Source of the DNA: Thomasclavelia cocleata
GTDB taxonomy: Bacteria > Bacillota_I > Bacilli_A > Erysipelotrichales > Coprobacillaceae
Length of the DNA stretch: 47,407 bases
Assembly: GCF_900102365.1 (NCBI RefSeq)
Contig: NZ_FOIN01000019.1
Span: 1 to 47,407 of the forward strand
Direction of reading: 5' to 3'
How positions within the stretch are numbered: position 1 is the first letter of the stretch; each line of letters begins with the position of its first letter. The notes beneath the pieces are model-generated. The model was not told where the DNA came from, made no database searches, and saw only the letters and a list, made by a program, of their open reading frames with translations. Shown piece after piece: positions 16,796 to 32,031 of this stretch. A program made the translations under genes and the position numbers.

Positions 16796-17126
16796 GACTC
16801 GTAGAAAGCGATTGCTACAAAAGTAGAGGAAAGTCCAGGCTTCCACAAGCTGCGATGCTTGTAGTGTTTGTACATGGCGAATTAATAAGTCATGGTAGCG
16901 TGAGCTAACGACAGGCCTAAGACCTAAACATAAGTATGGTTGATAAGCTATAAAGTGCCACAGAAACTATTCTAATCGAAAGATTAGCTGAAAAGAGGTA
17001 AACTCTGCAAGGAAGAAACCCAAATTTGGTAGGGGAATCATCTTGAAGGAATTGAACTGAAAGATGGATGCATATGCATAGATAAATAATCGTTTGAAAA
17101 ACAGAACTTGGCTTACAAAGCGAGTC
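16796..17126 (+). ncRNA. rnpB: RNase P RNA (bacterial type B)
   Basis: The catalytic RNA that matures tRNA 5' ends. The conserved core GTAGAGGAAAGTCC is at about 16825-16838, GACAGGCCTAAGACC near 16910-16925 and AACTTGGCTTACA near 17105-17116. The outer helix P1 forms between GACTCG at 16796-16801 and CGAGTC at 17121-17126, which fixes the ends. The internal sequences and size fit the Bacillus-type (B) class. It is followed at once by a strong terminator. Confidence 0.95.
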
Positions 17127-21469: not shown

Positions 21470-22495
21470 ATGGCTGAAGCAAAAACAAAAGAGAATAAAG
21501 AAGAAGCTAAAAGGGCTCAAGCATTGGATGATGCAATTAAACAAATAGAAAAGAAATATGGAAAAGGTTCAGTAATGAAATTAGGAGATCGTAGTGCGGT
21601 TAGTATTGATGTAATACCAACTGGTTCTTTAACGCTGGATTTAGCACTTGGGATTGGCGGATATCCTAAAGGACGAATTATTGAGATTTATGGACCTGAA
21701 TCAAGTGGGAAAACAACGTTAACACTTCATGCCATAGCAGAATGTCAAAAACAAGGAGGTAGAGCGGCTTTTATTGATGCTGAACATGCAATTGATCCTG
21801 TCTATGCCCAAAGTTTAGGTGTAGATATAGATGAATTAATTTTATCGCAGCCAGATTCTGGGGAACAGGGATTGGAAATTGCAGAAACTTTAGTTCGTTC
21901 TGGAGCAATTGATTTAGTAGTGGTTGACTCTGTGGCAGCTTTAGTTCCTCAAGTTGAATTAGATGGTGAAATGGGTGATGCCCAAATGGGGCTGCAAGCT
22001 CGTTTAATGTCTAAAGCATTAAGGAAAATAGCTGCAGAACTAAATAAATCTGAGTGTACGATTATTTTTATTAATCAGTTAAGAGAAAAGATAGGTGTAA
22101 TGTTTGGTAATCCTGAAACAACTACTGGTGGTAGAGCGTTAAAATTTTATTCTTCAATACGAATTGAGATTCGTCGTAGTGAAGCAATTAAACAAGGTAG
22201 CGATATTGTAGGAAATAAAACAAATATTAAGGTTGTAAAAAACAAAGTAGCCCCACCATTTAAAACAACACAGGTTGATATTATCTATGGAAAAGGTATT
22301 TCTCGTGATGGTGAGGTCCTTGATTTAGCTGTAGAAAAAGATATTGTAGAAAAAAGTGGAGCCTGGTACGCATATAAGGGTGAAAAGATTGGACAAGGAC
22401 GTGAAAATGCTAAAACATTTTTAAATACTCATCCTGAGATAATGGATGAAATTACTCAAGCTATCATTAAATCTTTAGAAATAGAAGAAAAGTAG
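21470..22495 (+). CDS. recA: Recombinase RecA (341 aa)
   Basis: DNA-dependent ATPase that catalyses homologous strand exchange and triggers the SOS response. Walker [10 protein letters not shown] is at about residues 75-83, with the family signature A-L-R-K-I-A later and [10 protein letters not shown] in loop L2. The length is normal and AGGAGG precedes the start. It closes the rodZ-pgsA-cinA-recA operon. I did not see a convincing LexA box immediately upstream. Confidence 0.98.
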
Positions 22496-22584: not shown

Positions 22585-23001
22585 TCAAGAGTCTAACAAG
22601 GGTAATTGGTATTGTTCGAGAATTAAATTGGTTTTTAAAACAGAATATTTATTTTTTAATGCTAAAAGAATCGCTGCATCAAATTTAACTTTTGGATATA
22701 GATAACCATTGTTAGATAATGATAATAGATTATTAGTTTCCCTAATATCTAACTGCATTGCTAGAGCTAGTTGGATAACTTTATTACGACTAGGAATCTT
22801 TGTGCCATTAAAAATTTGATATGCATAAGTTCGATGTAAATTAGCTTTATTGATTAGAATGCTTTTACTCATATTCTTTTTAGCTAAAAGAGCTTCTAAA
22901 TAATCAACAAAATTAATTTCAGGAACTTGTTTTAAAAGTGTTTCAAGAGTTAAATGTTCGTTTTTATTAATAATATCTAATAATTGAGTTGTTGAAATCA
23001 T
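22585..23001 (-). CDS. Helix-turn-helix protein divergent from a Ser/Thr kinase (138 aa)
   Basis: A small XRE-like DNA-binding protein. The region about residues 35-95 has the pattern L-L-A-K-K-N-M-S-K-S-I-L-I-N-K-A-N-L-H-R-T-Y-A-Y-Q-I-F-N-G, a helix-turn-helix of the Cro type, followed by a helical tail. I chose the ATG at 23001 because AGGTG lies 8 bases upstream; a GTG at 23010 falls inside that site. It is divergent from the kinase at 23058, only 56 bases apart, so both genes share a regulatory region. The likely role is to regulate the pair or to be the kinase's substrate; this is inference from context. Confidence 0.7.
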   Translation of the reverse strand: MISTTQLLDIINKNEHLTLETLLKQVPEINFVDYLEALLAKKNMSKSILINKANLHRTYAYQIFNGTKIPSRNKVIQLALAMQLDIRETNNLLSLSNNGYLYPKVKFDAAILLALKNKYSVLKTNLILEQYQLPLLDS

Positions 23002-23057
23002 TTTTATCACCTATACTTAGGATATAATATAAAAATCTATGTTGCAAGGAGAAATGT

Positions 23058-24122
23058 ATGGATATTTGTGAACTTTATGATGAATTAGAAGTAATTAAAG
23101 AAAATAAATATAAAAAGCTTTCACTTGTACGTAACCAAATTGATCATCTTTTATATTTAAAAAGGGAAATTGCTGCTCATAATAAAGAAATATATTATCA
23201 ATTAGCTAAAAATGATAGTAAGTATTGGCCTAAAATATATCAGGTACAGGAATCTGATAATAAAATAATTGTTATTGAAGAATATATTAATGCACCCACA
23301 TTAGAAGATGTTTTATTAAATGAGTCATTGTCTAAAGAAAAAGTTATAAATATTTTCTCTCAAGTATGTTATGCTGTTTTAAAACTACATCAAATGAATC
23401 CTTCAATAATTCATCGAGATATTAAACCAGGTAATATATTTTATGTACATGGCAAAATTTATTTATTTGATTTTGATATTTCAAGAAATTATCAATTAGA
23501 AAAAAATAAAGATACACAGGTTTTGGGAAGTGTAGGATATGCAGCACCAGAACAATTTGGATTTGGGCAAAGTAATAGGCAAAGTGATATTTATGCACTT
23601 GGGGTACTTTTAAATGTATTATTGATTAATAAATTACCAAATGAGACAATTTATTCAGGTGAAGAAGGAAAAGTGATTAGAAAAGCAACTAGCATTGACC
23701 CGAATCAAAGATATACATCTGTTAAAGAATTATTAAATGATCTCAACATAAAAGAAGAATCTTCTGTAAAAGAGTCAACATATAGTTTACCAGGATTAAA
23801 AAGTGATAATAAGATTAAAAGAATTTTATCATTTATAAGTTATGTGATAATATTTTTATTTTGTTATAGTGCACCAGTTACATCAAATGGTGTTTTAGCA
23901 ACAGGAATAATTGCTTTTTTATATCGAACATATATGTATATGATGATAATGACTATAATTTTAGTTATTGCTAATTATTGTGGTGTACATAATTATTGTT
24001 TTTTCTCAAAATCTAAATATTTTATATTTCGGTTACTTGGAATTGTTTTATATCTTATTTTAGCATTATTTATTGAATTAATGGCTATAAGTTTAATAAT
24101 AGCTTTTTTTGAAATTAACTAA
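23058..24122 (+). CDS. Membrane-anchored Ser/Thr protein kinase (354 aa)
   Basis: An Hanks-type kinase domain occupies residues about 10-240. The likely ATP-binding lysine is K35 (L-Y-L-K-R-E-I). The catalytic loop HRDIKPGN is at 119-126. The metal-binding motif reads D138-F-D140 where DFG is usual. The activation segment A-A-P-E-Q-F-G and the D-I-Y-A-L-G-V-L-L motif are present. The C-terminal third has three predicted membrane helices (about 258-280, 290-310, 325-350) and no PASTA or other known extracellular repeat. AGGAG precedes the start. It is paired with the divergent HTH protein and followed by a DUF4352 protein, so a three-gene signalling cassette is plausible. Confidence 0.88.
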   Translation: MDICELYDELEVIKENKYKKLSLVRNQIDHLLYLKREIAAHNKEIYYQLAKNDSKYWPKIYQVQESDNKIIVIEEYINAPTLEDVLLNESLSKEKVINIFSQVCYAVLKLHQMNPSIIHRDIKPGNIFYVHGKIYLFDFDISRNYQLEKNKDTQVLGSVGYAAPEQFGFGQSNRQSDIYALGVLLNVLLINKLPNETIYSGEEGKVIRKATSIDPNQRYTSVKELLNDLNIKEESSVKESTYSLPGLKSDNKIKRILSFISYVIIFLFCYSAPVTSNGVLATGIIAFLYRTYMYMMIMTIILVIANYCGVHNYCFFSKSKYFIFRLLGIVLYLILALFIELMAISLIIAFFEIN

Positions 24123-24193
24123 TGTATGCTAAAAGCAGACCAATTGACTAATTAAAAAATATATAATTTTCTTGTGAAAAGGGAGGATTATAT

Positions 24194-24760
24194 ATGAAAA
24201 TTTTACGTAAGTTTAAAGAATTATCACTAATGAAAAAAATACTATGTTTCATAGTAATTATTGGATTGATTGGAATAGTTGCTGGTGGCAGTTCTAATGG
24301 TGAAACAAAGAAAAAAGAGGATGAGCCTACTAATGAAGTAACAAATGAAAAGGAAGAATATAAAATAGGTGAAGTAGCTAAGGTTGGTGAAGTTGATTAT
24401 TTGATTAATAATGTTGAGGTAACTAAACAAATTGGTAGTGAATATGTAAATACAAAAGCAAAAGATACTTTTTTAATTATTGATATTTCAATTACTAATA
24501 ATGAAAAAGAATCTTTAACTGTAGCTGATAACTTTTTTAAATTATTAAATGGTGAAAATGAGTATTCAGCAGATAGTACAGGTGCCATCTATTTAAATGA
24601 TAATTCAATTATTTTTAAAGAATTAAATCCTGGGGTTACATTGCAAGGAAAAATAGTATTTGATGTACCTGAATCAGTTGCAATGGCAAATGAAACAAAA
24701 TTGCAGGTTCAAACAGGTATTTGGGGTAGTGAAAAAGATGTAATTTCATTGTCTAGATAA
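24194..24760 (+). CDS. DUF4352 secreted or anchored protein (188 aa)
   Basis: An N-terminal hydrophobic helix (residues about 14-32, MKKILCFIVIIGLIGIVAGG) is followed by a Glu/Lys/Asn linker and a beta-sandwich domain of the DUF4352 (telokin-like) type from about 58. Typical features are the phrase F-L-I-I-D-I-S-I-T-N-N, then L-N-P-G-V-T-L-Q-G-K-I-V-F-D-V-P. No lipobox cysteine is present, so it is more likely a membrane-anchored extracellular protein than a lipoprotein. GGGAGG lies 6 bases before the ATG. It stands 71 bases after the kinase gene. The function of the domain is not known to me. Confidence 0.8.
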   Translation: MKILRKFKELSLMKKILCFIVIIGLIGIVAGGSSNGETKKKEDEPTNEVTNEKEEYKIGEVAKVGEVDYLINNVEVTKQIGSEYVNTKAKDTFLIIDISITNNEKESLTVADNFFKLLNGENEYSADSTGAIYLNDNSIIFKELNPGVTLQGKIVFDVPESVAMANETKLQVQTGIWGSEKDVISLSR

Positions 24761-24785
24761 AATTTGTTATATAACGATATGGGGC

Positions 24786-24819
24786 TGTAACGAGTGAATA
24801 ACTCATTTCAGTTTCAAAA
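24786..24819 (+). repeat. Left 34-bp inverted repeat of a 3.2-kb island
   Basis: TGTAACGAGTGAATAACTCA followed by TTTCAGTTTCAAAA. It matches the reverse complement of 27934-27967 with two differences in 34 bases. The pair encloses the type III toxin locus, a decayed HEPN gene and a SecB-like remnant. Confidence 0.8.
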
Positions 24820-24936
24820 AACATAGTCATCTGTGCAATGGCATGAATTTAAGAATAATTATATTTCGGTAATCTAAAATAACTTGGGGTTCTGGGGTTT
24901 TAGATACTAAAAAATCATGGTATTAATTACTAAATT

Positions 24937-24988
24937 AAAAGAATCAGCTGTATATTAGTCAAATTAGATTAATCAGTTGATTCTTTTT
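24937..24988 (+). terminator. Orphan terminator
   Basis: AAAAGAATCAGCTG (24937-24950) pairs with CAGTTGATTCTTTT (24974-24987) with one wobble. It has the form of a strong terminator in either direction but follows no intact gene. Confidence 0.7.
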
Positions 24989-25066
24989 ATATGAAATAAT
25001 ATGATAATTGTATAATCACATTATTCTAACCTTTATATCAAATTATTATGAAGGGGCAAATATTAT

Positions 25067-25278
25067 ATGGAGCAATCTAGAATTGATTTATCAAGATATA
25101 GATTAGAGCAGGCAGAGCAATGTATTATTTCTAAGTTCTATATAAGATTGGAGATTTTATAGAAGTTATTGATTTTGTCAAGCATTCAGGAGTAATATCG
25201 TATTTTAGAAAGACTTACATTAAAATAGGTATTTTTGACATAAAACTATTAAACATTATTTTAGAAGTAAAAGTTTGA
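25067..25278 (+). pseudogene. Decayed HEPN-domain gene (UPF0332 / MNT-HEPN type)
   Basis: From ATG 25067 (AAGGGG upstream) the frame reads MEQSRIDLSRYRLEQAEQC, like the start of HEPN proteins of MNT-HEPN modules. It hits a stop at 25160. The next frame continues L-Y-K-I-G-D-F, then V-K-H-S-G-V-I-S-Y-F-R-K-T-Y-I-K-I-G-I-F-D to TGA 25276, matching the family's K-K-H-S-G-V-I-S-x-F-R motif. The central S-Y-Y-A-x-F-H region that holds the R-x4-6-H active site is deleted. No nucleotidyltransferase partner is seen. It is non-functional. Confidence 0.7.
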
Positions 25279-25347
25279 AAATGTAATCCATTTGGAAGAA
25301 TAAAAAGTATTTAAACTATCATATTATATATAAGCAAACTGTTTTTG

Positions 25348-25376
25348 TTGATTTTTTTATGATTATATGGTATATT
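25348..25376 (+). promoter_or_regulatory. Promoter of the type III antitoxin RNA and toxin
   Basis: TTGATT at 25348-25353, a 17-base spacer and TATATT at 25371-25376, with an extended TG at 25368-25369. The predicted transcript starts near 25383, immediately before the first AAAT repeat. Confidence 0.7.
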
Positions 25377-25384
25377 CTATTTGT

Positions 25385-25452
25385 AAATTGGAGGACCAAA
25401 GCCTGAGTTGGAGCGACTAAATCGGAGAACCAAAGCCTTAGTTGGATTAAAC
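25385..25452 (+). ncRNA. Putative type III antitoxin RNA: two 34-nt tandem repeats (ToxI-like)
   Basis: Two head-to-tail 34-nt units lie at 25385-25418 and 25419-25452. Each begins AAAT and contains GGAG, ACCAAAGCCT and AGTTGGA; differences fall mainly in the last six bases. CCAA and TTGG in each unit (25396-25399 with 25408-25411; 25430-25433 with 25442-25445) can pair. The unit length matches known ToxI repeats (34-36 nt). The AAAT at each unit border matches the A-rich cleavage site that ToxN enzymes use to release antitoxin units. The repeats stand between a promoter and a strong terminator directly ahead of the toxin gene, the standard type III order. Known systems often have 2-6 units; only two are visible here. 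Confidence 0.78.
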
Positions 25453-25460
25453 AGTTTGTT

Positions 25461-25499
25461 AACAGAGATACAACTCAAGTTGTTATCTCTGTTTTGCTT
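25461..25499 (+). terminator. Terminator between antitoxin RNA and toxin gene
   Basis: AACAGAGATACAAC (25461-25474) and GTTGTTATCTCTGTT (25479-25493) form a long stem with one bulged base and a TCAA loop, then T's. In type III systems a leaky terminator here sets the ratio of antitoxin RNA to toxin mRNA. Confidence 0.88.
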
Positions 25500-25523
25500 T
25501 CTTATAGGAAGGAGTTGTTTACA

Positions 25524-27269
25524 ATGAGATTATATAGACCTAAAAGTGATTATATTCAATATCTTTTTGATAGGGATAAAAGAATAATTAATTCAGAAAA
25601 TACGATAGGGGTTCCTATAAGATTAAATGAGTTAATATATTTTTTACCTATTGATTCACCATCTGTTTCTGATTATGAAGATGGCGTTCTAAAGAAATCA
25701 TCCCCAACTATAATGAGAATGTTCGATTTGAAAACCAAAATTTATTTAGGTAAATGTCTATTTTCAAACATGTTTTCAGTTCCTTATAAGGAGTTAGAAG
25801 TGGTTGATATAACTGATTTTGACGAAGAGAAATTTGTACTCATGGAAAAAAAGTTAGAATATATAAAAAGAAACCATGATAGAATTATGAAATCAGCTAA
25901 AATGCTTTTTAAACAAAAAAGTAGAAATTATAAGCAATCATATCTAAAATCTACTGTGGATTTTACTAAGATTGAAAATGCATCATTAGAATGGGAAATA
26001 CAAAAGTATGGGAAACATTATAATAGATTTCCTGATCAGAATTTCTTTTTAATAAATCCAAATATTGATGGGTTATCTGAATACTATTTAATGAATAAAG
26101 AAGTTAAAATTGCAAAAATTGTTTTTGATAACTCATTACAGAAGATTGATAGTATTTTGGAAATTTATAATGCAGAGTATGCACCACTAGAATGTTTTAA
26201 TAAAGATAAACTTGATAGTGAGAGAATGACTGCTTGGTTCAAAGGAAGAGGAATACCTTCATGGCGTGACGGATTAGATGATTTCTTAGAAAATCTAGGG
26301 ATAGAAAATAAGGATTTTTTATTGAATAGAGCATATGGTTTATCTCTGTCGGATCAATATTGGATGAATCCAGTTGAGAGATTAATGGATTGGAAAGATA
26401 TTAATTTTTTTGATCATGATTTTAATAGTCAAGATTTCATAGATGCTTCTTTTGAAGATAAATTTGTAGACAATAGAGCAGTTGATTTTTATTCACCTAA
26501 TAACACATCTGATGGAATGCTGAAAAAAGTATGGATTGTAGGAGAAGATAATCAAAGGTATCTTTTGAAAGGATCGTTTAAAAGAAAAGGATTAGAACCA
26601 TTTAATGAAGTTCTATCAGGAATGATAGCACAAGCAATCAATTTGGAATATATCCCTTATACTATTGAAGTGATGAACAAAACACTTTTTTCAAAATGCA
26701 AATGTTTCATTGGTAAAGATACAGAACTTATTTCAGCATATGCAATTCTGGCAAAAGAGAACATAGATATGAAAGAAAACTGTGTAAATGTTATGAACCA
26801 CTATATTAGAATATTAAAAGAAAAAAGTGTTTTTGCGGTTGAAGAAAAGTTGGCTAAAATGTTTATCTTAGATTATTTAATGGTTAATCAAGATCGACAT
26901 TTAGGAAACTTTGGTATTATAAGAAATGTTAATTCATTAAAATGGGAAGATATTGCTCCAAATTTTGATAGCGGACAAGCTATGTTTTCTCAAAAAGAAG
27001 TATATGAAATGAATTTTGTGAAAGCAGAAGGTTGTTTCTTTAATAATAAGAATTTAGATTTTGAAGAAATATTAAAACATGCTCAGACATTATTTCCATC
27101 AATTCAATTGAATTTTGAAAGTTTAGAAAGTATACCATACAAGTGGAAAAACGAGTTGAAAAAATATCAATATGTTTCATTAATTAGTGATGAAAAAATT
27201 GATGTGCTTATAGAGGGGCTTAAATTAAGAATTGCAAAATTAAAAGAAAATCTATTTAATAGATTATAA
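25524..27269 (+). CDS. ToxN/AbiQ-like endoribonuclease fused to a HipA/CtkA-like kinase (581 aa)
   Basis: Residues about 1-155 look like a type III toxin: S-D-Y-I-Q-Y-L near the start, then Y-F-L-P-I-D-S-P-S (about 39-47) where ToxN has a P-L-x-S-P-K active-site loop, S-S-P-T-I-M-R-M, and L-F-S-N-M-F-S-V-P in place of the L-N-N-M-I-P strand. The helix L-E-Y-I-K-R-N-H-D-R-I follows. Residues about 170-580 form a HipA/CtkA-type kinase: L-S-L-S-D-Q-Y-W-M-N-P linker motif, L-L-K349-G nucleotide-binding lysine, catalytic N-Q-D457-R-H-L-G-N462 and metal-binding N-F-D482-S-G. Typical ToxN proteins are about 170 residues and HipA about 440, so the size fits a fusion. I chose ATG 25524 with GGAAGGAG upstream; the longer reading starts inside the terminator. 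The frame is open throughout. Confidence 0.82.
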   Translation: MRLYRPKSDYIQYLFDRDKRIINSENTIGVPIRLNELIYFLPIDSPSVSDYEDGVLKKSSPTIMRMFDLKTKIYLGKCLFSNMFSVPYKELEVVDITDFDEEKFVLMEKKLEYIKRNHDRIMKSAKMLFKQKSRNYKQSYLKSTVDFTKIENASLEWEIQKYGKHYNRFPDQNFFLINPNIDGLSEYYLMNKEVKIAKIVFDNSLQKIDSILEIYNAEYAPLECFNKDKLDSERMTAWFKGRGIPSWRDGLDDFLENLGIENKDFLLNRAYGLSLSDQYWMNPVERLMDWKDINFFDHDFNSQDFIDASFEDKFVDNRAVDFYSPNNTSDGMLKKVWIVGEDNQRYLLKGSFKRKGLEPFNEVLSGMIAQAINLEYIPYTIEVMNKTLFSKCKCFIGKDTELISAYAILAKENIDMKENCVNVMNHYIRILKEKSVFAVEEKLAKMFILDYLMVNQDRHLGNFGIIRNVNSLKWEDIAPNFDSGQAMFSQKEVYEMNFVKAEGCFFNNKNLDFEEILKHAQTLFPSIQLNFESLESIPYKWKNELKKYQYVSLISDEKIDVLIEGLKLRIAKLKENLFNRL

Positions 27270-27513
27270 AGTACAATTGTAAGAAAAAGATGATATAACA
27301 AGGAAATGTTATACAAAGTGAAATTCTCATTTCAGCCAAAAAATATTGTTGTATCTATAAAGGGATATAATAAATCGAATACAAGTTGTTTTTAAGATGT
27401 TCAAATTTGAACATCTTTTTGTTGGGAATAAAGTCAGGAGGAAACTATTTATTATTATAAAGTGAGATTCACATAGGGCAAAAGCCTTTTTATTATGTTG
27501 ATTAACACATTAA
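27270..27513. other. Short gene-free stretch after the toxin
   Basis: Contains a partial third match to the island's repeat sequence (CTCATTTCAG at about 27328-27337) and the toxin's terminator. A 29-codon reading from about 27308 exists, but nothing supports it as a gene. Confidence 0.45.
27393..27421 (+). terminator. Terminator of the toxin gene
   Basis: AAGATGTTCAAA and its perfect complement TTTGAACATCTT form a 12-bp palindrome, followed by T's. Confidence 0.8.
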
Positions 27514-27843
27514 ATTAAATATGATTTTGATCATTTAAAAGATGATGAAACAATAAAAAGTAGATTATGCTTAAAGACGCAAGTTAAAAAGCTTACTAAT
27601 AACAATAGAATTTTAAGTGTTAATGTTGTAATATCTGTTTTTTTTGAATTTTCAAATTGTGAAGAAGTGTTGAATAGAGATTTTGATGATATATTAAAAT
27701 ATGATGGTATTGCAATATTATTTACTTATGTAAGAACATTGATTCAAAATATGACATCTTATGATTGTTCAAATTCAAGAATTTTATTACCTCCAATTAA
27801 TATTAAAGCAATTGTTGATGAACTTGATAGTAAAGAGGAATAG
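27514..27843 (+). pseudogene. 5'-truncated SecB-like chaperone gene
   Basis: A 109-codon open frame with no credible start codon. It begins right after a TAA and reads K-Y-D-F-D-H-L-K-D-D. Its second half has D-G-I-A-I-L-F-T-Y-V-R-T-L-I-Q-N-M-T, then I-L-L-P-P-I-N-I, the closing pattern of SecB-family chaperones (A-I-L-F-P-Y-L-R and L-P-P-I-N). Roughly the first 30 residues are missing. SecB-like proteins occur as export chaperones and as partners in toxin-antitoxin-chaperone modules. Three stop codons in a row end the frame. The family assignment is by eye. Confidence 0.55.
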
Positions 27844-27997: not shown

Positions 27998-30175
27998 TTA
28001 TTTTAAATCATCTTTAAGTTTTAATAATGCTGCAAATGGAGAATCTTCAATCGATGTTTGCTGTTTTTTTTGTTGATTCATATATTTTTTAACATCACTT
28101 TTACGAGCTAACGAACTTTTATTTTCACGTTCTTTTTTAAATGCATTCATGTGTTGGCGGTAACCACATGTTTTACAAACAAACATTTGCTTATCACCTT
28201 TTCCTACAAGTTCTAATTTTTTATGACAATTAGGACATCTGGCGTTAGTGACAATTGAGATTGTTTCACGATGTTTACAATCTGGGTTTGAGCATACTAA
28301 CATTTTTCCCTTTTTTCCATTTACTTCAAGCATAAGTTCACCGCAATCTGGACATTTTTTGGTAGTCAGGTTTTCGTGTTTAAATTTAGCTTGACTAGAA
28401 CTAATTTCAGTAATTATATTTTGAGTATAATCTTTTATTTCATTAATAAAGTTATTTGATTTTTGTTGTTTTTTTGCAATTTTTGCTAATTCCATTTCCC
28501 ATTTGGCAGTTAATTCAGGTTCTTTTAAGTCTTGAGGGACTAATTGTAAAAGCTGTTTACCTTTACTAGTAACCCTGATATCATTTCCATGTTTTTCAAT
28601 TAAAAAAGTATTAAATAGTTTTTCGATAATATCTGCTCTTGTAGCAACGGTTCCTAAACCACCAGTATTTTTTAATGTTGTATTAATTTGTTTTGATGAG
28701 CTGTTTGTAAATTGAATAGGATTTTCCATTGCTGATAGTAATGTTGCTTCGTTGAAATAAGCTGGTGGAGTAGTTTGTCCAGTTGTTTTAATGATTTCAT
28801 TAACTGTTATTGTTTCATGTTGTTTTAATAGTGGTAAAGACTGATCGTCATTGTCTTCATCTTCAATTTTTCCATAAACTTCTTTCCATCCAGTTTGTTT
28901 TTCGATTTTACCTTTAGCAGTAAATTTTTCTTTATTAATAACTGCTTTGATAACTGTCTGTTCATATAGATATGGTGGTAAAAGAACCGCTAAAAAGCGT
29001 TTTAAAACTAATTCATATATCTTCATTTCTTTATCACTAAATGATCCTAACATTGCTGGTTGTTCAGTTGGGATAATCGCATGATGATCACTTACTTTGC
29101 TGTTATTTACAAAATGAGCTTGTTTTTTAATTGGGACAGCTAAAATTTTATTAATTATATGATCATAATAACCTCCTTTACTAGCTTCAAGACGTTCTTT
29201 TAAAGTAGGAACGATATCATCTGTTAGATAACGAGAATCAGTACGTGGATATGTTAAAACTTTATGGTATTCATATAAATCCTGCATAATTGATAATGTT
29301 TCTTTTGCTGAAAAACCATACAGTTTATTAGCGTCTCTTTGAAGTTCAGTTAAATCATATAACTGTGGAGCATATTTCTTTTTAGTTGTCTTATTAATCT
29401 CAGTGATTTTTAGTGAATGATTTGAAATATTTGTAATTATGTCATCAATGTTTTCTTCATCAAAAAGATGAGATTCATTTTTATTTGATTGCCATGACCA
29501 GTTAATATCTTTAGTTATTACTTTAATGCCATAAAAAGTACGTGGGGTGAAGTTTTTAATTTCTTCTTCTCTTTTAGCAATCATTGCTAATGTTGGAGTT
29601 TGTACACGACCACATGCTAATTGGGCATTATATTTACATGTCAAAGCTCTAGTGGCATTAATACCTACTAGCCAATCAGCAATACTTCTGCTATAAGCAC
29701 TATGATATAATGCATCGTAATCATGGGAATTTTTTAAATTTTTGAAACCTTCTTTTATTGCTTTATCAGTTACTGAAGAGATCCATAATCTTTGCATTGG
29801 TTTTTTAATATGTGCTTTATTAATGATCCAGCGAGCTACTAGTTCACCTTCACGTCCAGCATCGGTTGCAATAACAATATTATTTACATCATTGCGATTC
29901 ATTAAATTTTTAACTGCATTATATTGTTTAGTTGTGTTTTTAATAACAACAAGCTGCATTTTATCAGGGATAATTGGAAGATCATTGATATCCCACTTTT
30001 GATATTGTTTATCATATTTCTCTGGATCGGCTAAAGTGACTAAGTGTCCTAAAGCCCAAGTTACAATATATTTATTTCCTTCTAAACCACCATTTATACT
30101 TTTAGTACAGTTGAAAACACGTGCGATGTCACGCCCTACAGATGGTTTTTCTGCTAAAATTAATGTTTTTGCCAT
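27998..30175 (-). CDS. topB: DNA topoisomerase III (725 aa)
   Basis: A type IA topoisomerase that passes single strands and unlinks DNA during replication and recombination. The N-terminal Toprim domain starts MAKTLILAEKPSVGRDI and has D-A-G-R-E-G-E. The active-site tyrosine is Y309 in L-T-Y-P-R-T-D-S-R-Y. The C-terminus carries two zinc ribbons: C-P-D-C-G ... C-S-N-P-D-C near residue 610 and C-P-N-C ... C-K-T-C near 645. The length is normal for TopB of Firmicutes. GAGG precedes the ATG. It is alone on the minus strand, facing the island. Confidence 0.95.
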   Translation of the reverse strand: MAKTLILAEKPSVGRDIARVFNCTKSINGGLEGNKYIVTWALGHLVTLADPEKYDKQYQKWDINDLPIIPDKMQLVVIKNTTKQYNAVKNLMNRNDVNNIVIATDAGREGELVARWIINKAHIKKPMQRLWISSVTDKAIKEGFKNLKNSHDYDALYHSAYSRSIADWLVGINATRALTCKYNAQLACGRVQTPTLAMIAKREEEIKNFTPRTFYGIKVITKDINWSWQSNKNESHLFDEENIDDIITNISNHSLKITEINKTTKKKYAPQLYDLTELQRDANKLYGFSAKETLSIMQDLYEYHKVLTYPRTDSRYLTDDIVPTLKERLEASKGGYYDHIINKILAVPIKKQAHFVNNSKVSDHHAIIPTEQPAMLGSFSDKEMKIYELVLKRFLAVLLPPYLYEQTVIKAVINKEKFTAKGKIEKQTGWKEVYGKIEDEDNDDQSLPLLKQHETITVNEIIKTTGQTTPPAYFNEATLLSAMENPIQFTNSSSKQINTTLKNTGGLGTVATRADIIEKLFNTFLIEKHGNDIRVTSKGKQLLQLVPQDLKEPELTAKWEMELAKIAKKQQKSNNFINEIKDYTQNIITEISSSQAKFKHENLTTKKCPDCGELMLEVNGKKGKMLVCSNPDCKHRETISIVTNARCPNCHKKLELVGKGDKQMFVCKTCGYRQHMNAFKKERENKSSLARKSDVKKYMNQQKKQQTSIEDSPFAALLKLKDDLK

Positions 30176-30474: not shown

Positions 30475-32031
30475 ATGTCAGAAATTAATGCCGTTTCTAT
30501 TTTAACCTATGTTCTAGCTGTAGCTTTAGGATTTTTTATAAACTATTTAATAAATAAATTAAAAATATCTAAGGCTAACGTAAGTGCTGCAAAAATTATT
30601 GATGAAGCAACTGTTAAAGCAGATAATCTTATTAAAGAAGCAATTTTAGATGCAAAGACAGAAGCTTATGAGTTAAAACTTCAAGCTGAAAAGGAAGCTA
30701 AATTACAAAGACAAGAAATTACTGCACTTGAAAATAAACTTTTACAAAGAGAACAAACAATTGATCGAAGAGATATTGCGGTTCAGGGAAAAGAAGATGT
30801 TTTAGCACAAAAAGTAGTACAATTAGACGAAAGAGAAGCCGGACTAGGGAAACTAGAAGCTGAATTAAAAGAAAAGATTAATGCCAAAGTTGGCGAATTA
30901 GAAAAAATTGCTGCAATGTCAGCGAATGAAGCAAAACAAGAATTATTTAAACAGGTTGAACAACAAATTGCTACTGAAATGACAGCATATATCAAAGATC
31001 AAGAAGAGGAAGCTAAATCTAAAGCGAGTCTAATTTCTCGAGATATTATTGCTAATGCAATTAATCGTTACGCTCAAGAAGAAACAGTTGAAAGAACTGT
31101 TTCAGTAGTTGCTTTACCTAGTGAAGAAATGAAAGGGAGAATAATCGGTCGAGAAGGACGTAATATTAAAGCAATCGAACAAACTACAGGGGTAGATTTA
31201 ATTATTGATGATACTCCTGAAGCAATCACGATTTCATGTTTTGATCCAGTACGCCGAGAGATTGCAAGATTATCATTAGAAACTTTAATTCGTGATGGTC
31301 GGATTCAACCAGGTAGAATTGAAGAAGTAGTTGAAAAAACTAAAAATGAATTAGATGAAGTAATAAGAAAAACAGGAGAAGATGCGATATTTGAATTAGG
31401 AATTTCAAGAATTGATAAAGATATTATCATGATGTTAGGGAAACTTAAATATCGTACTAGTTATGGACAAAATGCTTTACAACATTCTTTAGAAGTTGCA
31501 CATTTAGCTGGAATCATGGCAGCTGAATTAGGTTTGAATCAACAATTAGCAAGACGGGCTGGATTGTTACATGATTTGGGAAAAGCAATTGATCATGAAA
31601 TGCAAGGTAGTCACGTTGAATTAGGTGCTAAGTATGCTAAAAAGCATGGAGAACATCCAGTTGTTGTAAATGCAATTGAATCTCATCATGGTGATGTACC
31701 TGCAACTAGTGTGATTTCAATTTTGGTTGCTGCAGCTGATACTTTAAGTGCGGCACGACCTGGAAGTCGTAGTGAGACAATTGAAAACTATATCCAGCGT
31801 TTAGAAAAACTTGAAGAAATGGCAAAAAGTTTTGATGGTGTAGATCGTGTTTTTGCGATTCAAGCAGGACGTGAAGTACGTATTGTCGTTAAACCTGATA
31901 AAGTGGATGACTTGATGTCACATAAAATAGCTCGTGATATTAAGAATAAGATTGAAGAGGAACTTACATATCCTGGTCACATTAAAGTAACTGTAATTCG
32001 TGAAATTCGTGCTAGCGAAGTAGCAAAATAA
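30475..32031 (+). CDS. rny: Ribonuclease Y (518 aa)
   Basis: A membrane-bound endoribonuclease that starts mRNA decay in Firmicutes. The N-terminal membrane helix lies at about residues 8-24. It is followed by a long coiled coil to about 175, a KH domain ([16 protein letters not shown]) at about 215-270 and an HD domain with H-S-L-E-V-A and [11 protein letters not shown]. The length is normal. A GGGGGG site precedes the ATG. It is followed by ymdB, its usual neighbour. Confidence 0.97.

Follow-up and report, generated by a model that had tools for sequence, protein, structure and literature searches.

The window, by which we mean the whole stretch of 47,407 nucleotides that was analysed, holds two tandem ToxI-like RNA units followed by a terminator hairpin, a ribosome-binding site and a gene for a 581-aa protein that combines a ToxN-like part with a HipA-like kinase part. 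The features of this locus are as follows:

25348..25376, + strand: putative extended –10 promoter (TTGATT, 17-nt spacer, TG-n-TATATT), a consensus match only
25385..25418, + strand: ToxI-like unit 1 (AAATTGGAGGACCAAAGCCTGAGTTGGAGCGACT), from repeat comparison
25419..25452, + strand: ToxI-like unit 2 (AAATCGGAGAACCAAAGCCTTAGTTGGATTAAAC), from repeat comparison
25461..25493, + strand: intrinsic terminator hairpin in the interval between array and gene (AACAGAGATACAAC-TCAA-GTTGTTATCTCTGTT, then TTGCTTT), from a fold of 25383–25500
25506..25514, + strand: ribosome-binding site AGGAAGGAG, read from the sequence, 9 nt upstream of the ATG at 25524
25524..27269, + strand: ToxN-HipA fusion gene, 581 aa, from ORF translation and from profile and PDB sequence searches
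25524..26003, + strand: pseudo-ToxN domain, residues 1–160, a ToxN/AbiQ fold without the catalytic set, from Pfam, model and alignment
26076..27254, + strand: HipA/CtkA-type kinase, residues 185–577 (K349, D457-R-H459, N462, D482), from model and sequence motifs

The two 34-nt direct repeats described in the initial annotation were borne out, as 26 of 29 compared bases are identical at a spacing of 34, and none of 60 second-order Markov shuffles of the window yielded a comparable pair. Within the window, a pair of such quality is unique at offsets of 30–40. The unit motif (consensus across loci AA[AG]NNGGAGNACCANAGCCTNAGTTGGA) also recurs at homologous loci in other genomes, while a reversed control pattern gave no matches in the same genome search. 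Tandem Repeats Finder at score 30 did not list the array because it consists of two imperfect copies, and Rfam gave no ToxI match at either gathering or relaxed thresholds, its single weak hit being due to chance. Both units start with AAAT and the second ends with AAAC (25449–25452), as had been read before. This 5′ border of the unit is A-rich in all loci (AAGA in L006, AAAA in L013 and L014); the window's AAAC at the 3′ end of the last unit, like the stretch from there to the terminator, is not conserved between loci.

Unit 1 starts 9 nt after the end of the promoter-like site, and transcription is predicted to start a few bases upstream of that unit. In a scan of the fusion loci (see below), the position of the extended –10 element relative to unit 1 was –18 for the window and L004 and –34 to –45 for most others, and none was seen upstream of the array in L016. 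The end of the feature as first claimed (25493) coincides with the end of the terminator hairpin. A Rho-independent terminator separating array and toxin gene is one of the criteria for type III systems (PMC5086642), and the hairpin at 25461–25493, which is strong and has a T-rich tail, is placed accordingly. The proposal of a ToxI-like array in a type III layout, with repeats, terminator and a gene of the ToxN family in this order, is thereby supported.

The unit is compatible with an H-type pseudoknot in which stem 1 would pair GG (columns 7–8) with CC (19–20) and stem 2 would pair CCA (13–15) with UGG (26–28). Pairing is possible in 98.9% of the alignment cells, compared to 12.6–60% when the partners are slid. 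In the single-ToxN relatives L043, L048 and L058, stem 2 has changed from CCA/UGG to CCC/GGG (A-U to C-G, one pair), and five compensatory cells were counted in this stem (0 of 500 shuffles); stem 1 consists of two G-C pairs only and is without covariation. Because the covariation comes down to one pair and one evolutionary split, support for the pseudoknot is real but thin. As to the pseudoknot check that had been suggested, the unit is compatible with an H-type fold, with compensatory change at one pair only. The CCAA/TTGG pairing pointed out earlier is indeed kept in both window units, but the relatives keep three pairs (CCA/TGG), with the fourth often being T.T or G.T. As these bases are identical in both window units, no covariation can be drawn from the window alone.

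Based on sequence and structural model, the protein encoded downstream is a ToxN-fold domain joined to a HipA-like kinase with intact motifs, an identity that the initial annotation had overlooked. In profile searches, residues 1–154 hit ToxN of Pfam at 2.2e-19, which is above the cut-off, and AbiQ of PADLOC at 4e-25, residues 328–499 match HipA-like families slightly under the cut-offs, and a PDB sequence search with the fusion protein returned AbiQ (1e-9), ToxN and the Helicobacter kinase CtkA. In NCBIfam, no family covers the whole 581-aa protein. In an AlphaFold2 model (15 alignment rows, mean pLDDT 81.5), residues 1–160 superimpose on AbiQ 4glk (Z 21.4, rmsd 1.9, 156 residues) and on ToxN (Z 20), residues 185–577 on full-length HipA (Z 18.5 over 321 residues) and residues 299–581 on CtkA (Z 21.1), the packing of the domains being uninformative because of low confidence at the linker (167–175) and at 311–332. 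Residues K349, D457-R-H459, N462 and D482 align with the motifs of CtkA and HipT(Lp), and the kinase motifs DRHxxNFG and D-[SN]-G are invariant across fused and single kinases. The ToxN fold asked of a type III protein and the fold with catalytic residues asked of a HipA-type kinase are therefore both present. An HTH antitoxin (HipB) was found neither adjacent nor fused to the gene; the next gene upstream encodes a DUF4352 protein, and the sole nearby HTH gene lies at 22585–23010 on the opposite strand.

The fusion gene is part of a variable islet (22585–27843) that comprises the HTH gene, a Pkinase-family membrane kinase, the DUF4352 protein and ToxN-HipA. This islet adjoins recA (21470–22495), with a topoisomerase gene (27998–30175) and an rny-like gene (30475–32031) beyond, and is likely an insertion hotspot. 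At its far end, a short frame (27520–27843, + strand) with a sub-threshold SecB match (1.6e-4) is possibly the remnant of a SecB-like chaperone; such chaperones accompany some toxin-antitoxin systems. Elsewhere in the window, the RNA of RNase P (bacterial class B) was located at 16805–17116 (+ strand). Two more HipA-like kinase genes or fragments without ToxN are present in the same genome (G000:C28:21743–22402 and G000:C27:25028–25783).

To examine the active site of the ToxN-like domain, nine fused domains were aligned with 51 single ToxNs, to which the protein of P. atrosepticum was added in what we take to be its reference sequence, the numbering of which agrees with the residues named for E. 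coli ToxN. In E. coli ToxN, the catalytic site is formed by K33, T52, S53 and K55 and the RNA is held by W57, F88, Y110 and Q117, while changes at K33, T52, K55, W57 or Q117 abolish toxicity (PMC8860590). The catalytic set, scored as a basic residue at 33, S/T52, S53 and a basic residue at 55–57, is complete in none of the nine fused domains compared to 46 of the 52 single ToxNs, although the Fisher values for this comparison count related sequences rather than events. The basic residue at 33 is absent from all fused domains because its loop is deleted, whereas all 52 single ToxNs have it. Likewise, S/T52 is kept in 2/9 fused domains versus 49/52 single ToxNs, S53 in 4/9 versus 48/52, any basic residue at 55–57 in 2/9 versus 52/52, Y110 in 0/9 versus 40/52, and Q/E117 in 1/9 versus 50/52. 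The window protein itself displays E or a gap at 33 and D44, S45 and S47 at the other catalytic positions, and it no longer has Y110 or Q117. The structural positions G37, P50 and Y47 and the core are retained in the fused domains, which furthermore share a strongly conserved basic helix (RLYKQKxKxYxQxYL). By alignment, this helix falls in the alpha-4 region of E. coli ToxN, and in E. coli ToxIN the alpha-4 helix contacts the pseudoknot (PMC8860590). As the fused domains form one clade (support 100/99) with a single origin, the loss of the active site is best read as one loss that was then kept.

As judged from alignment and model, the ToxN domain has thus lost its RNase active-site set, and toxin-mediated release of the units is unlikely. 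At the cut-off used, there is no other ToxN gene in the window's genome, so no ToxN appears to be at hand for cutting the array in trans. The earlier view of the AAAT borders as ToxN-like therefore stands as far as an A-rich border at each unit is concerned, but not for unit release via AAAT cutting by the gene product. A bifunctional toxin, in which the ToxN domain would still cut and free the units through a rearranged active site (e.g. R33, D50, Y51) while the kinase provides a second activity, would agree with the intact ToxN fold, with the fusion-specific conservation of R33 and D50-Y51, and with the A-rich borders kept ahead of both units in most fusion loci; these largely conserved AAAT-like borders could reflect continued cutting. 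We nevertheless deem it unlikely, since every published catalytic or RNA-holding position that was tested has gone, jointly with the others, from all or most of the fused domains (K33 0/9, Y110 0/9, Q117 1/9, basic 55–57 2/9) and the border is AAGA or AAAA in the three loci named above, with the last unit's 3′ border unconserved.

After merging duplicates between the genome and contig collections, ten distinct fusion loci were counted (the window, L004, L005, L006, L007, L013, L014, L016, L017 and L077), all of them in the window's own order and spanning at least eight genera. Sampling 395 genomes across the class and 392 across the phylum revealed no fusion outside this order, and when order and phylum were scanned for ToxN-domain frames of more than 400 aa, these ten loci accounted for all of them. 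Viral contigs yielded single ToxNs and single kinases and, at the sensitivity of the search, no fusion, and phage and plasmid records held one half or the other only. No description of such a fusion was met in the open-access papers searched, which is not proof of absence.

The layout of units, terminator, ribosome-binding site and fusion gene is found in 10/10 fusion loci, each with a terminator-like hairpin at the equivalent position. Nine of the ten have two units (the second of L014 being degenerate), with an extra partial unit ahead of these in L005 and L007, and the decayed locus L017 has one. Two units is therefore the normal state, and the unit-number comparison suggested earlier identifies two as the usual count for the fusion clade. 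Among the single-ToxN loci of the same taxon, array size as estimated from the lengths of periodic stretches varies between about one unit (L048) and nearly four, and the locus with one recognisable unit (L048:1402–1438) has an intact-looking active site. The idea of a contracted array is not upheld by these counts, and two-unit arrays are also known elsewhere: CptI of Eubacterium rectale has two units (PMC4627078), and for antiQ 1.8 repeats suffice. The other earlier suggestion, that of a toxin requiring just a small RNA assembly, is possible.

The fusion gene is intact at six loci, with 48–59% identity to that of the window, and carries stops or frameshifts at the other four (L007, L016, L017 and L014), some of which may be assembly errors. 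Four of ten genes being broken indicates that selection for keeping the module is weak in places. Together with the array standing alone in three or four genomes, these lesions could point to a decaying fusion toxin of which both parts are being lost and the array is a relic. This seems very improbable, however, given the invariant kinase motifs of the six intact genes, the well conserved units, and a single origin followed by spread across at least eight genera, which is unlike a relic.

Outside the fusion loci, the unit pattern was encountered in four genomes of the family, none with the fusion gene behind it:

G001, L127:1501: one unit and terminator
G039, L137:20: two units and terminator
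G012, L129:1501: a half and a whole unit and terminator
G022, L134:1119: degenerate unit

L129 is syntenic with L005 and L007: a MATE-family transporter gene precedes it, and about 60 bases stand in place of about 1.85 kb of L005. An addiction module that has lost its toxin would be expected to leave the antitoxin behind; L127, L137 and L134 fit a gene that was never inserted equally well.

The kinase part without ToxN (residues about 186–575) is widespread, most close relatives standing alone. One relative carries an N-terminal HTH (L120) and another, in Collinsella, an excisionase-like HTH (L070), while a third on a Selenomonas plasmid (L069:2630–4143) is preceded by a gene annotated as a HicB-family antitoxin. 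These differing N-terminal parts and neighbours suggest that kinases of this family can exchange the control part at their N terminus, which is a pseudo-ToxN here. Among the closest single kinases, the majority lack an evident antitoxin gene, and the kinase may therefore not be toxic. Inhibition is likewise not a proven need, and with the nuclease lost the original reason for neutralisation is gone as well, so that the RNA might instead be an activator or scaffold, with pseudo-ToxN and RNA together targeting the kinase or switching it on. We regard this as quite unlikely, as the antitoxin-first order with a terminator is that of type III systems in 10/10 loci, and solo arrays persist without the gene as expected for a harmless antitoxin.

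Given the lost cutting residues and the fusion to a kinase, the repeats probably restrain the kinase rather than a nuclease. Our preferred reading, to which we assign a probability of about 0.6, is that of a type III-like module: the pseudo-ToxN domain would bind an RNA antitoxin, and this RNA would hold the HipA-like kinase in check. The array would be transcribed from its own promoter, with most transcripts stopping at the terminator, and the RNA would thereby outnumber the ToxN-HipA mRNA. Each unit may form a short H-type pseudoknot to which the N-terminal ToxN-like domain binds, and this binding would keep the attached HipA/CtkA-type kinase inactive. The array RNA presumably either remains intact or is processed by an enzyme of the host. 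When this short-lived RNA falls, for instance upon phage shut-off of host transcription, the kinase would be freed to phosphorylate a cell target and growth would stop. RNA binding, inhibition, toxicity, trigger and target are thus what we infer for this module.

In descriptions so far, type III systems are ribonucleases neutralised by RNA, and HipA kinases are neutralised by proteins. There is about an even chance that the locus represents a new class, in which an RNase toxin has turned into an RNA-sensing domain on a HipA-like kinase and a small RNA directly controls the kinase in place of a protein antitoxin. If so, type III RNA control and HipA kinases would be joined in a compact RNA-controlled kinase, with the RNA antitoxin re-aimed at a new effector. 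The fusion also makes testable a non-catalytic role of the ToxN-ToxI contact, and two units as the functional minimum without unit release.

With ToxIN and AbiQ-antiQ (P. atrosepticum, B. thuringiensis, E. coli, L. lactis), the locus has in common tandem units of 34–36 nt, a terminator before the gene, the ToxN fold and a pseudoknot-compatible unit, and its unit sequence is related to that of single-ToxN units of the same bacterial family (GGAGNACCC..GCC..GGG). Unlike these systems, however, it lacks the ToxN catalytic set and is joined to a HipA-like kinase, making toxin-mediated unit release unlikely. Since the catalytic site is missing, we do not class it among the ToxIN ribonuclease systems despite its ToxIN-like layout and fold, although the RNA side may well work like ToxIN. 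HipBA, HipBST and CtkA of Helicobacter pylori share the HipA fold including the N-subdomain region (185–577) and the catalytic D-x-H...N...D, but the window has no neighbouring HipB-like gene, and the kinase is apparently regulated through an RNA-binding domain of its own polypeptide. CptIN of Eubacterium rectale shares the two-unit array and the type III layout, and differs by its 45-nt units, its active ribonuclease and its unfused toxin (PMC4627078). Finally, AbiF-RCd22 of Clostridioides difficile, although its Abi protein is unrelated and has no kinase or ToxN part, features an RNA antitoxin whose two motifs measure 33 and 35 nt and which the toxin reportedly does not process, so that a two-motif RNA antitoxin left uncut has been seen before (PMC12373285).
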